The notes under the pieces: generated by a model
What the model saw: the letters and a program-made list of their open reading frames with translations, nothing else
Told to the model about the DNA's origin: nothing
The model's database searches: none
Translations under genes and position numbers: made by a program
Assembly (NCBI GenBank): GCA_947629685.1
Contig: CANREP010000001.1
Span: 1 to 64,000 of the forward strand
DNA from: an uncultured Phascolarctobacterium sp.
GTDB taxonomy: Bacteria > Bacillota > Negativicutes > Acidaminococcales > Acidaminococcaceae
DNA length: 64,000 nucleotides
Direction: 5' to 3'
Part shown: positions 4,401 through 55,688 of the stretch, in pieces
Position numbering within the stretch: the first letter of the stretch is position 1
Layout of the letters: each line of letters starts with the position of its first letter

Positions 4401-4417
4401 AATTATTGTCGTTATCC

Positions 4418-4500
4418 ACTTTCCTACGCCGGTATTATCCGTAAATCAGGTTCAAAGGGTCGGGCCTCAGCCCTCTCAGCAAATGCGCCCCTAGCGGTTT
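4418..4500 (-). promoter_or_regulatory. TPP riboswitch (THI element)
   Basis: Minus strand: GGGGCGC...CTGAGAGGGCTGAGGCCCGACCCTTTGAACCTGATTTACGGATAATACCGGCGTAGGAAA. Confidence 0.95.
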
Positions 4501-4553
4501 ATGTATTCAGTTATACGTTTACTTTAACATGTTCTGCCGGTTTTGGCAAATAA

Positions 4554-20335: not shown

Positions 20336-21664
20336 TCAGCCGATACCGCCATATACAAAGCCAAGAATCAGCACCAGCACCGTCAGCGGCACATAGATAT
20401 AGCGTCCGGCAATGCCGAAAGCGGCAGAGAGTTTGCCATGGCCGATTTCCAGCTCCTGTCTGATGCGTTCCCAGCCCAGTACATAATAAATAGAAACAGC
20501 GCCCAGCACCGCGCCGCAAGGCACGATGACTACGGAAACAAAATCCATCCAGCCGCCTACCTTTGGCTCCGCCTCGATAAAGACGCCCACAGCCAGGCTA
20601 AGTATGCAGCAGATAAGAACGGCAGTATTTCTGGCAATACCGAAATTTTTCTGCCAGCTTTCACTGACTGCTTCCAGCATATTGATTAAAGACGTGATGC
20701 CTGCAAAGAAAACGGACAGGAAGAAAAACACTGCAAAAAACTGTCCCATGGGCATCTGCTGGAAAACCGTTGGCAGCGTCAGGAAGATCAGCGACGGCCC
20801 CCTGTCCGCGCCGATGCCGAAAGAAAACACCGCCGGCATAATCGCAAGTCCCGAAAGCATGGCCGCAAGGGTATCAAAGCAGGCGGTACGCAAGGATGCT
20901 TTCGGAATATCCACATCCTTATCCAGATACGCTCCGTAAACAATCATCCCGGAGCCGGTAATAGACAACGAGAAGAACGCCTGCCCCATTGCCATGACCC
21001 AGGTATCGGCACGCATCAGCATATCCCAGTCGGGCACAAAGAGGAATTCATAACCCTTGCCGCTGCCCGGCAGGAAGAACACCCACACCGCCAGGAATAA
21101 AAAGAGCAGGAAAAAGAGCGGCATCAGAACCTTGCTGACTTTCTCAATCCCTTTGATGATACCCATTAAGAGTACCGCGCCGGTAATGGCGATAACCAGC
21201 ACATGCCAGAGCAGGCTGCCGTATTCGCCGCTGGCCGCCGCAAAATATACTGCCGGGTCGGCTGTCAGCAGCTCGCCGCTGATTGAGCCCCACAGGCTGC
21301 GCAGGATCCAGCCGAGGATGATGGCATACCCGATAGCCAGCCCCAGACTGCCCAGAAGCGGAATCCAGCCCAGCGACTTACCCAGCCTGCCCAGACCGCG
21401 CCCGGCAAAACAATACTTATACGAGCCAAGCGTGCCGGTGCGAGCCAGACGGCCTATGGCAAACTCGGCGGAAAGGCCCACCCAGCCGAACAAAAACACA
21501 AAAAAGAGATAGGGAATTAAAAAAGCCGCTCCCCCATATTCGCCCAGACGATAGGGAAACAGCCAGATATTACCCAGCCCTACTGCCGAACCTACACAAG
21601 CAATGATGAAACCAAAAGAAGAAGTAAAGCTTCCGTTCTGATTACCTTCCTGAAATTTTTTCAT
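20336..21664 (-). CDS. Sodium-dependent (neurotransmitter symporter family) transporter
   Basis: SFGFIIACVGSAVGLGNIWLFPY signature. Confidence 0.92.
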   Translation of the reverse strand: MKKFQEGNQNGSFTSSFGFIIACVGSAVGLGNIWLFPYRLGEYGGAAFLIPYLFFVFLFGWVGLSAEFAIGRLARTGTLGSYKYCFAGRGLGRLGKSLGWIPLLGSLGLAIGYAIILGWILRSLWGSISGELLTADPAVYFAAASGEYGSLLWHVLVIAITGAVLLMGIIKGIEKVSKVLMPLFFLLFLFLAVWVFFLPGSGKGYEFLFVPDWDMLMRADTWVMAMGQAFFSLSITGSGMIVYGAYLDKDVDIPKASLRTACFDTLAAMLSGLAIMPAVFSFGIGADRGPSLIFLTLPTVFQQMPMGQFFAVFFFLSVFFAGITSLINMLEAVSESWQKNFGIARNTAVLICCILSLAVGVFIEAEPKVGGWMDFVSVVIVPCGAVLGAVSIYYVLGWERIRQELEIGHGKLSAAFGIAGRYIYVPLTVLVLILGFVYGGIG

Positions 21665-21858: not shown

Positions 21859-21886
21859 TTGACTGTCTGTAAATTAGTGATATAAT
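21859..21886 (+). promoter_or_regulatory. Sigma-A type promoter of the serine operon
   Basis: TTGACT - 16 nt - TATAAT immediately upstream of the T-box leader. Confidence 0.7.
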
Positions 21887-22082
21887 TTTTTACAATCAAT
21901 TTTATAAAGCAACGCTATGATAAAGAAGCAGTCTGCTCAGCTTTCAGAAAGCTGCCGGTCGATGCAAGGCAGCAGCAAGGCAAAACTGTTCCGCTTTGGA
22001 GCGGCAAATGATGAATTTGACGGTCTCGCCCGATACAGCGAACTAAAGATGGCCGTAGGCAATTTGGGTGGCAACGCGGGAA

Positions 22083-22120
22083 AGGTTCTCGTCCCATTGG
22101 GGATGGAGAGCTTATTTTTT
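22083..22120 (+). terminator. T-box terminator 1
   Basis: aaggttctcgtccc-att-ggggatggagagctt then atttttttt. Confidence 0.7.
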
Positions 22121-22164
22121 TACCCTGCGCGCCTTGCTGCAGCCGAATTTGGGTGGCACCGCGA

Positions 22165-22206
22165 GAAGAGAAGCTCGTCCCAAGGGACAGCTTCTCTATT
22201 TTTATT
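22165..22206 (+). terminator. T-box terminator 2
   Basis: agagaagctcgtccc-aag-ggacagcttctct then attttt. Confidence 0.85.
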
Positions 22207-22224: not shown

Positions 22225-23301
22225 ATGACCAGAGCCTATAATTTCAACGCCGGGCCCTCCGCCATGCCGCTTGAAGTACTGCAGGAGGCGCAGGCAGAAT
22301 TTACCGATTACAAACACACCGGGATGAGCATTATCGAAATCAGCCACCGCAGCGCCGAATACGCCGCGCTGCATCAGGAAACAAAGGACCTGCTGCGCGA
22401 GCTGATGGAGATTCCCGACGATTATGAAATCATGTTTATCCAGGGCGGCGGCAGCACCCAGTTCCTTATGACCGCAGCCAACTTCCTTACCGGCGGCGGC
22501 AAAGCTGCCTACGTCAATACGGGCGTGTGGGCGAAAAAAGCCATGGCGGAAGCCAAATACTTCGGCGAAGCTTACGAAGCAGCAAGCAGCGCTGACCGCA
22601 ACCACTGCTATATCCCGCAGGAATTTACTATCCATGATAACACCTGTTACGTGCATCTGACAGCCAACAACACCATCTACGGTACAGAGTATCCTGCTTT
22701 TCCAAAATTTGACGTGCCGGTAATCTGTGATATGTCCAGCGACATCCTGTCCCGACCCGTCAACGTGGCAGACTTTGACCTTATCTATGCAGGAGCGCAG
22801 AAAAACCTCGGCCCTGCCGGCGTAGTCATCGTTATCGCCAAAAAAGCTTTTCTGGCCAAAGCAAGGCAGAATCTGCCCACCATGCTGAAATACAGCACCT
22901 TTGCCGAAAACGATTCCCTGTACAACACGCCCCCGGTATTCTGCATCTATATGGTCAACAAGACCCTGCACTGGATTAAAAACCAGGGCGGCGTCGCTGC
23001 CGTAGCTGCCAATAACGCAGCCAAGGCACAGGTTATCTACGACGCTATCGACGGCAGCAACGGCTTCTATATCGGCCATGCCGACAAAGAATACCGCAGC
23101 AGGATGAACATTACCTTTAACCTGGCAGATAAAGAGCTGGAAAAAGACTTCGTCGCTCAGGCTAAAGCCGCAGGCTTTATCGGTGTCGGCGGTCATCGTC
23201 TGGTCGGCGGCTGCCGCGCTTCCGCCTATAACGCCGTACCTATGGAAGCATGTACCGCTTTGGCAGAATTTATGCACAGTTACCAAAAACAACATCAATA
23301 A
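22225..23301 (+). CDS. serC: Phosphoserine aminotransferase
   Basis: YNFNAGPSAMPLEVL, GAQKNLGPAGVVIVI; start after aaaggagattt (track start is inside the T-box). Confidence 0.96.
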   Translation: MTRAYNFNAGPSAMPLEVLQEAQAEFTDYKHTGMSIIEISHRSAEYAALHQETKDLLRELMEIPDDYEIMFIQGGGSTQFLMTAANFLTGGGKAAYVNTGVWAKKAMAEAKYFGEAYEAASSADRNHCYIPQEFTIHDNTCYVHLTANNTIYGTEYPAFPKFDVPVICDMSSDILSRPVNVADFDLIYAGAQKNLGPAGVVIVIAKKAFLAKARQNLPTMLKYSTFAENDSLYNTPPVFCIYMVNKTLHWIKNQGGVAAVAANNAAKAQVIYDAIDGSNGFYIGHADKEYRSRMNITFNLADKELEKDFVAQAKAAGFIGVGGHRLVGGCRASAYNAVPMEACTALAEFMHSYQKQHQ

Positions 23302-23335: not shown

Positions 23336-24928
23336 ATGACCATGAAAATATTAGTAAGCGACGATGTAAGCGAGAAAGGCGTAGCATTGCTGCGCCAGCA
23401 TTTTGACGTAGATGTAAAAACCAACATGCCCCCCGCAGAGCTGAAAGCCTGCATCGGCCAGTATGACGGACTTGTTACCCGCAGCCAGACCCAGGTTACC
23501 AAAGACATTATCGAAGCGGCTACCAACCTCAAGGTTATCGGCCGCGCCGGCGTCGGCGTCGACAACATCGACATCCCGGCGGCAACTGCCCGCGGCATCA
23601 TGGTACTGAACGCTCCCGAAGGCAACACCATGGCCGCTACCGAGCACACTATCGCCATGATGATGGCCATGACCAGACATATCCCCCAAGCACACGCTTC
23701 CATCCAGGCCGGCAAATGGGACAGAAAAAGCTTTGACGGCATCCAGGTACAGGGCAAGACTCTGGGCATCATCGGCGTGGGCCGTATCGGCAGCCGCGTA
23801 GCCAAACGTATGCAGGCTATGGAAATGACCACTATCGGCTACGACCCCTATATCACTGAAGAACGCGCTCATCAGGTAGGCGTAGAGCTGGTTGACCTGG
23901 ATACCCTGCTGGAACGCTCCGATTATATTACCATCCACACCCCGCTGACCAAGGAAACGGAAAAAATGCTCAACGCTGAAACCATCGCCAAGATGAAAGA
24001 CGGAGTGCGTATCGTCAACTGCGCCCGCGGCGGCTGCGTAGATACCCAGGCGCTGGCTGACGCCCTCAAGAGCGGCAAAGTGGCAGGCGCTGCCATCGAC
24101 GTTTATCCAGAAGAACCTCTGACCGCGGAAAACAATCCTTTCCTGGGCATGTTCAACGTAGTGCAGACCCCGCATCTGGGCGCTTCCACCATTGAAGCGC
24201 AAATCGGCGTCGCTGTAGACGTAGCTTACGGCGTTATCGACGCCCTGCAGGGCAAACCGGTTATGACCGCTGTCAATATGGCTCCCATTCCCAAGAGCGT
24301 GGCCGCAGTAATCCAGCCTTATTTCGGGCTGGCAGAACGCATGGGCACTATCGGCATTTACCTGACCGAAGGCCCCGTCCAGGAAGTCGAGGTCGAATAC
24401 ACCGGCATCCTGGCAGAAACCGAAACCCAGGCGCTGACCACAGCGTTTCTCAAAGGCTTGCTGAATCCCATCCTGCAGGACAGCGTCAACTTTGTCAACG
24501 CCCCCGGCATCGCTAAAAAACGTCACCTGAATGTTAAGGAAAGCAAATCTCATAGACCCGGCTATTTCACCACTGCCATCACCGTCAAGATTACTACCAA
24601 TAAAGCAACTCATAAACTGGTAGGCACCCTCTTTGACGGCAAAGAGCCCAAGATTGTCGAAATCGACCAGTACAAAGTAGACTTCAAGCCCGAAGGCTAC
24701 CTGCTGCTGGCTCCTCACGCCAATAAGCCCAACATGATCGGCCAGATGGCTACCATCCTCGGCAACGCCGGCATCAACATCAACGGGATGCAGGTTGGCA
24801 GCACTCCGGTGAAAGATACCAATATCATGGCCATCGCTGTCGGCAACGATATCCCCAACGACATCATGCTGCAGCTGCGCGGCGTAGAAGGCATCCTGGA
24901 CGTAAAACTCATTAACTGTGAGGGCTGA
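23336..24928 (+). CDS. serA: D-3-phosphoglycerate dehydrogenase
   Basis: VIGRAGVGVDNIDI, C-terminal ACT domain (NKPNMIGQMATILG). Confidence 0.96.
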   Translation: MTMKILVSDDVSEKGVALLRQHFDVDVKTNMPPAELKACIGQYDGLVTRSQTQVTKDIIEAATNLKVIGRAGVGVDNIDIPAATARGIMVLNAPEGNTMAATEHTIAMMMAMTRHIPQAHASIQAGKWDRKSFDGIQVQGKTLGIIGVGRIGSRVAKRMQAMEMTTIGYDPYITEERAHQVGVELVDLDTLLERSDYITIHTPLTKETEKMLNAETIAKMKDGVRIVNCARGGCVDTQALADALKSGKVAGAAIDVYPEEPLTAENNPFLGMFNVVQTPHLGASTIEAQIGVAVDVAYGVIDALQGKPVMTAVNMAPIPKSVAAVIQPYFGLAERMGTIGIYLTEGPVQEVEVEYTGILAETETQALTTAFLKGLLNPILQDSVNFVNAPGIAKKRHLNVKESKSHRPGYFTTAITVKITTNKATHKLVGTLFDGKEPKIVEIDQYKVDFKPEGYLLLAPHANKPNMIGQMATILGNAGININGMQVGSTPVKDTNIMAIAVGNDIPNDIMLQLRGVEGILDVKLINCEG

Positions 24929-55430: not shown

Positions 55431-55557
55431 CTGTAGGGCCGTAAATACCGGGCGCCCCTGCGGCACATGAAAGTATCCGCTTAAGGCTGCTTCCTTCCGG
55501 ACCTGACCTGGTTCACAGGCTCCCATTGCGCAGGACCCGGCATCTGCGGTCCTACAG
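55431..55557 (-). ncRNA. ffs: Signal recognition particle RNA (small bacterial/4.5S type)
   Basis: Minus strand carries CCAGGTCAGGTCCGGAAGGAAGCAGCC; termini pair (ctgtagg... /...cctacag). Confidence 0.95.
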
Positions 55558-55599
55558 AGAAATAAAATAAAAAAACCGCTGGTGCGGCAATTTCTAAAT

Positions 55600-55688
55600 G
55601 GCGGAGAGAGAGGGATTCGAACCCTCGGTACGGTTTCCCGTACACACGCTTTCCAGGCGTGCACCTTCAACCGCTCGGTCATCTCTCC
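55600..55688 (-). tRNA. tRNA-Ser(GGA)
   Basis: ggagagatgaccgagcggttgaaggtgcacgcctGGAaagcgtgtgtacgggaaaccgtaccgagggttcgaatccctctctctccgcca; long variable arm, G73, encoded CCA. Confidence 0.97.

Follow-up and report, generated by a model that had tools for sequence, protein, structure and literature searches.

The serC and serA genes in the 64-kb window (the whole stretch of DNA that was analysed, 64,000 nucleotides) are preceded by a leader in which a single Stem I is followed by two T-box/terminator modules. This layout is real and common in the class Negativicutes. We propose that in this leader the charging of tRNA-Ser is checked twice in series, by two gates behind one Stem I, and put the probability of this reading at roughly 0.7; that both gates respond to tRNA appears equally probable. 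A preliminary description of this DNA had suggested a double gate giving sharper repression, and the sequence comparisons reported here leave that idea plausible.

In a search of the window with the Rfam T-box model RF00230, positions 21908-22099 were matched over the full length of the model, from Stem I to antiterminator 1, with 84.7 bits (E=3.7e-18), a value that does not reach the gathering score of 93. No second T-box leader was found in this search up to E=10. The GGG triplet begins at 22066 in T-box 1 (GGGTGGCAACGCG) and, 85 nt further on, at 22151 in T-box 2 (GGGTGGCACCGCG), and each T-box has its own antiterminator, terminator and T-run (Table 1). The distance from the first T-run to T-box 2 is only ~24 nt and a second Stem I therefore has no room. 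Two modules and a single Stem I without space for another had both been claimed in the preliminary description, and both claims hold: the model recognised the leader once, and no second Stem I, which had been named there as a finding that would speak against the layout, was detected.

Folding of both modules, proposed as a check at the same time as the RF00230 search, gave two alternative structures in each case. The canonical 7-nt bulge is present in both antiterminators, with fold energies of about -9.2 kcal/mol for antiterminator 1 and about -10.4 kcal/mol for antiterminator 2, and the terminators fold with -17.0 (module 1) and -20.9 kcal/mol (module 2), each stronger than its antiterminator and with a T-run behind it. 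Against dinucleotide shuffles, the terminator z-scores were -3.5 for terminator 1 and -5.4 for terminator 2. According to these folds and z-scores, antiterminator and terminator are mutually exclusive in both modules. A gene for a sodium-dependent (SNF family) transporter (20336-21664, minus strand) is divergent from the leader, and the window also contains a TPP riboswitch (RF00059, 66.8 bits) at 4404-4502 on the minus strand.

Table 1. Features of the serine T-box leader, the genes behind it and the predicted tRNA ligand (positions in the window)
Feature	Position	Strand	Basis or remark
Serine T-box leader	21908-22206	+	upstream of serC, then serA
Candidate promoter TTGACT-16-TATAAT, extended -10	21859-21886	+	consensus scan, 11/12 matches
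Stem I, sole tRNA-decoding stem of the leader	21914-22002	+	RF00230 alignment
Specifier codon UCC (Ser), next base G	21990-21992	+	Stem I position
Stem II / IIA-IIB region	22003-22050	+	RF00230 alignment, limits approximate
Stem III (GCC-GTA-GGC)	22052-22060	+	RF00230 alignment; kept 5' of T-box 1 in 38 relatives
Antiterminator 1: UGGG/CCCA, bulge UGGCAAC (22069-22075), helix A2 GCGGGAA/UUCUCGU	22065-22096	+	fold; pairing kept in 38 relatives
Terminator 1 hairpin and T-run	22083-22121	+	fold, z-score, compensatory pair changes
Linker with no space for another Stem I and without conserved Stem III	22122-22145	+	comparison with 38 relatives
Antiterminator 2: UUGGG/CCCAA, bulge UGGCACC (22154-22160), helix A2 GCGAG/CUCGU	22149-22183	+	fold; covariation
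Terminator 2 hairpin and T-run	22167-22203	+	fold, z-score, covariation
serC, phosphoserine transaminase	22225-23301	+	TIGR01364, 475.5 bits, above cut-off
serA, phosphoglycerate dehydrogenase	23336-24928	+	TIGR01327, 651.2 bits, above cut-off
tRNA-Ser(GGA), predicted ligand, encoded 3' end GCCA	55599-55688	-	ARAGORN and sequence

The UCC specifier followed by a purine was kept in all 44 related leaders, 43 of which were recognised by pattern and one (G072, TTCCGT) by eye. A phenylalanine specifier UUC was considered and ruled out, since the leader of G316 has lost the preceding T yet keeps UCC. The tRNA-Ser(GGA) gene is located in the same window as the leader, and UGGC in both module bulges is complementary to the G73-CCA end that this gene encodes. 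Specifier, tRNA end and the serC-serA genes downstream support the serine specificity of the leader. The preliminary description was thus right about the serine identity and about the fit of TGGC in both T-boxes to G73-CCA. For T-box 1, this agreement covers the UGGC part of the bulge; the remainder is AAC, so that the complete bulge, UGGCAAC, departs from the canonical UGGCACC. The tRNA-Ser(GGA) gene is adjoined by a gene for the bacterial small SRP RNA (window positions 55443-55542, minus strand).

The distribution of paired modules was determined with a pattern of two T-boxes 45-75 nt apart in 383 genomes of the class, with the reversed pattern as control. Matches were obtained in 112 of the 383 genomes, representing 50 of the 103 genera sampled, against 0 matches of the reversed pattern in the same 383 genomes; the motif pair is not due to chance. 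The layout, which the preliminary description had proposed to look for in relatives, is therefore widespread across the class; the leader DNA itself was recognisable in 32 of 61 relatives. In the genome from which the window derives there is one paired case, and each of its other T-boxes, 12 in number, has a single module. Class-wide, the pairs serve several amino acids. They precede serC and serA and, as judged by translated starts only, also asnS, trpE, trpD, genes for sodium:solute symporters and others. Among the matches listed, pairs were also present in named clostridia, bacilli and paenibacilli. A scan of all genomes with the pattern gives no rate of occurrence, and many of its matches are to unrelated repeats with no T-runs (e.g. 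Streptomyces, L047).

Several variants of the arrangement were observed. Three T-box/terminator modules follow one Stem I in leaders L284 and L180 (genomes G083 and G084; also G085), with spacings of ~63 and ~66 nt and a downstream gene that is DAHP synthase-like by its translated start. Two leaders of trpD-like genes (L282, L283) have UGGUAAC in module 1 and UGGCACC or UGGUACC in module 2, so a module 1 with an AAC bulge also occurs outside serine leaders. In pairs of the UGGU type (e.g. L054, L057, L106 and L133), several of which lie before sodium:solute symporter-like genes, the hairpin preceding the first T-run is predicted to consist of the T-box itself and a strand 3' of it, for example GGTACCACCC. 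Of 55 distinct UGGU pairs, 32 have a hairpin formed in this way, as against 0 of 46 UGGC pairs; as the T-box lies inside it, such a terminator would sequester the UGGU reading the tRNA end.

To assess selection on the two modules, we used 38 serine pairs, of which 15 come from the Acidaminococcaceae and 23 from further families in the class. The N of UGGN was left free in the search pattern, while the other T-box core was fixed there and its conservation is no evidence. In module 1, N was C in 37 cases and U in one; in module 2, it was C in 26 and U in 12, and neither A nor G ever occurred in either module. Both C and U are able to pair with G73. Terminator z-scores were below -2 in 36 of 37 serine examples for terminator 1 and in 37 of 37 for terminator 2. 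Among 21 leaders with a serC-type module 2, 99.5% of the cells of antiterminator 2 were paired and two pairs had changed on both sides, a covariation exceeding nearly all of 500 shuffles and all slid controls; in the lower stem of terminator 2, four of eight pairs covary. The helix of antiterminator 1 is nearly invariant and offers little variation for a covariation test. Terminator 1 exhibits compensatory pair changes across 34 distinct sequences, with GC, AT, CG and wobbles at one stem position, all of them formed in the predicted hairpins. Taken together with the survey that follows, the constraint on N, the covariation in module 2 and the pair changes in terminator 1 argue that both modules are maintained by selection.

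For an unbiased survey, serC was located in 59 Acidaminococcaceae genomes and its upstream DNA was examined for 40 of them. Among the 24 genomes with a close SerC, 15 had a two-module leader, six a one-module leader and two none, and one was cut by the contig end. No T-box modules were found upstream of serC in the 16 genomes sampled that have a distant SerC, and no degenerate second module was seen among the 21 serC-linked T-boxes of the family. One-module leaders of either type occur: G026 and G068 retain module 1 with its UGGCAAC bulge, whereas the sole module of G009 carries the terminator of module 2. The genus-mate G022 has both modules, and recombination between the two T-boxes would be expected to leave a module of the form seen in G009. 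Because the two-module form is so widely spread, we infer that the one-module leaders arose by loss. A decayed module 1, an objection anticipated in the preliminary description and suggested by the UGGCAAC bulge, is ruled out: 31 of the 38 serine examples share this bulge, and in two species the module that carries it is the only one.

The two modules differ consistently. The UGGCAAC bulge of module 1 is found class-wide, and module 2 has UGGCACC in 35 of 38 examples. About half of the serine examples, mostly from outside the Acidaminococcaceae, lack the fourth A1 pair in module 1. The linker varies from 15 to 42 nt among the 38 relatives, and their linkers share neither a conserved Stem III nor a consistent hairpin 5' of T-box 2; a duplicated Stem III, first suspected there from a few genera, was accordingly rejected. 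Without a conserved Stem III in front of its T-box, module 2 may read the tRNA less well. In all 38 genomes, each module has its nearest foreign relative among modules of its own type and is closer to that relative than to its own sister. The duplication is evidently old, since both modules are conserved and module 1s resemble foreign module 1s and not their own module 2. Module 2 falls into two clusters, one before serC and the other mainly before serA, and may for this reason have undergone more than one replacement or duplication, although in the short alignment many forks are not resolved.

With regard to the mechanism, Stem I would bind tRNA-Ser(GGA) via the UCC specifier, and each of the two serial discriminator/terminator modules would probe for a free 3' end (G73-CCA). 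If uncharged, the tRNA would stabilise antiterminator 1 and let the polymerase pass terminator 1, after which the free CCA end would have to stabilise antiterminator 2 as well; charged tRNA would permit termination at either gate. The output would then be approximately the product of the per-gate readthrough r. In serine-replete cells the leak would likewise approximate the product of two leaks, and by this arithmetic the basal leak would fall and the response would steepen. A single tRNA anchored by Stem I may serve both gates. In a more specific, hand-off form of the proposal, module 1 would refold into its more stable terminator hairpin once the polymerase has passed terminator 1. The CCA end would thereby be released, and module 2 would then have to be engaged by this one tRNA. 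Here, UGGCAAC would make gate 1 deliberately unlike gate 2 in a proofreading-like check, a tentative idea that we consider more likely wrong than right. Several observations count against the double gate: six leaders of the family manage with one module, the fourth A1 pair of antiterminator 1 is absent in about half of the examples, and T-box 2 has no conserved Stem III in front of it.

The similarity of the two T-box cores could point to a recent tandem duplication or an assembly artefact without functional weight. This reading has practically no probability left and is refuted by the presence of the layout in many independently sequenced genera and by the identity of 0.58 between the two modules within a genome, which is lower than the values of 0.71 and 0.64 for same-type modules between genomes. 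It is also conceivable that one module alone senses tRNA and that the other, as a plain attenuator or a remnant, reduces expression by a constant factor. The non-canonical bulge of module 1, its shorter A1 helix outside the Acidaminococcaceae and a module 2 without conserved Stem III would all suit such an arrangement. We nevertheless consider it quite improbable, given that both modules have only C or U at the tRNA-contact position, that either module type has been retained in one-module leaders, with UGGCAAC serving as the only bulge in G026 and G068, and that not one of 21 leaders has a degenerate module.

A further possibility is that a second tRNA-Ser, diffusing freely and not anchored on Stem I, acts at gate 2, so that two tRNAs are read. 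Once gate 1 has been passed, antiterminator 1 would hold the CCA end of the anchored tRNA, and antiterminator 2 has a complete bulge of its own. On the other hand, tRNA binding by an antiterminator alone is weak, a second Stem I is absent and the linker is short in 38 of 38 examples; we therefore regard reading of two tRNAs as unlikely.

T-boxes with duplicated terminator-antiterminator elements were reportedly described by Vitreschak et al. in 2008. The serine leader, read here as a transcriptional T-box riboswitch, belongs to an already known type, the 'partially tandem T-boxes' (PMC7583486), in which one tRNA-binding part is likewise followed by two antiterminator/terminator elements; no difference in layout was identified. 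With the type already named and so many genera of the class containing it, the novelty implied for the half-duplicated layout in the preliminary description cannot be upheld. In a 2020 review, the mode of action of partially tandem T-boxes is given as unknown. A sharper response has already been proposed for double T-boxes (PMC9413887). Fully tandem T-boxes, such as that of B. subtilis thrZ and the double T-boxes of PMC9413887, share two serial terminators under one tRNA and the proposed sharper response, but have a Stem I for each terminator, while the serine leader has a single one and none before T-box 2. Serial platforms have been termed pseudo-cooperative (PMC9481103). Pseudo-cooperative tandem riboswitches also make serial, multiplicative decisions on one ligand; they consist of two complete riboswitches, however, whereas the serine leader doubles the expression platform and not the ligand-binding domain. 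The serA T-box of Paenibacillus polymyxa (PMC8002221) is a serine T-box before a serine biosynthesis gene as well and acts by transcription antitermination, but has one module, the specifier AGC and the bulge UGGU instead of two modules, UCC and UGGC.

In the literature searched, we found no description of the class-wide UGGCAAC bulge in module 1 or of natural one-module variants, and these appear to be the new details. The variants provide a same-genus test set of two-module versus one-module leaders with a known cognate tRNA (G022 versus G009; G016 and G032 versus G026 and G068). With this set, one can ask whether one anchored tRNA is readable twice and what benefit a second gate brings.
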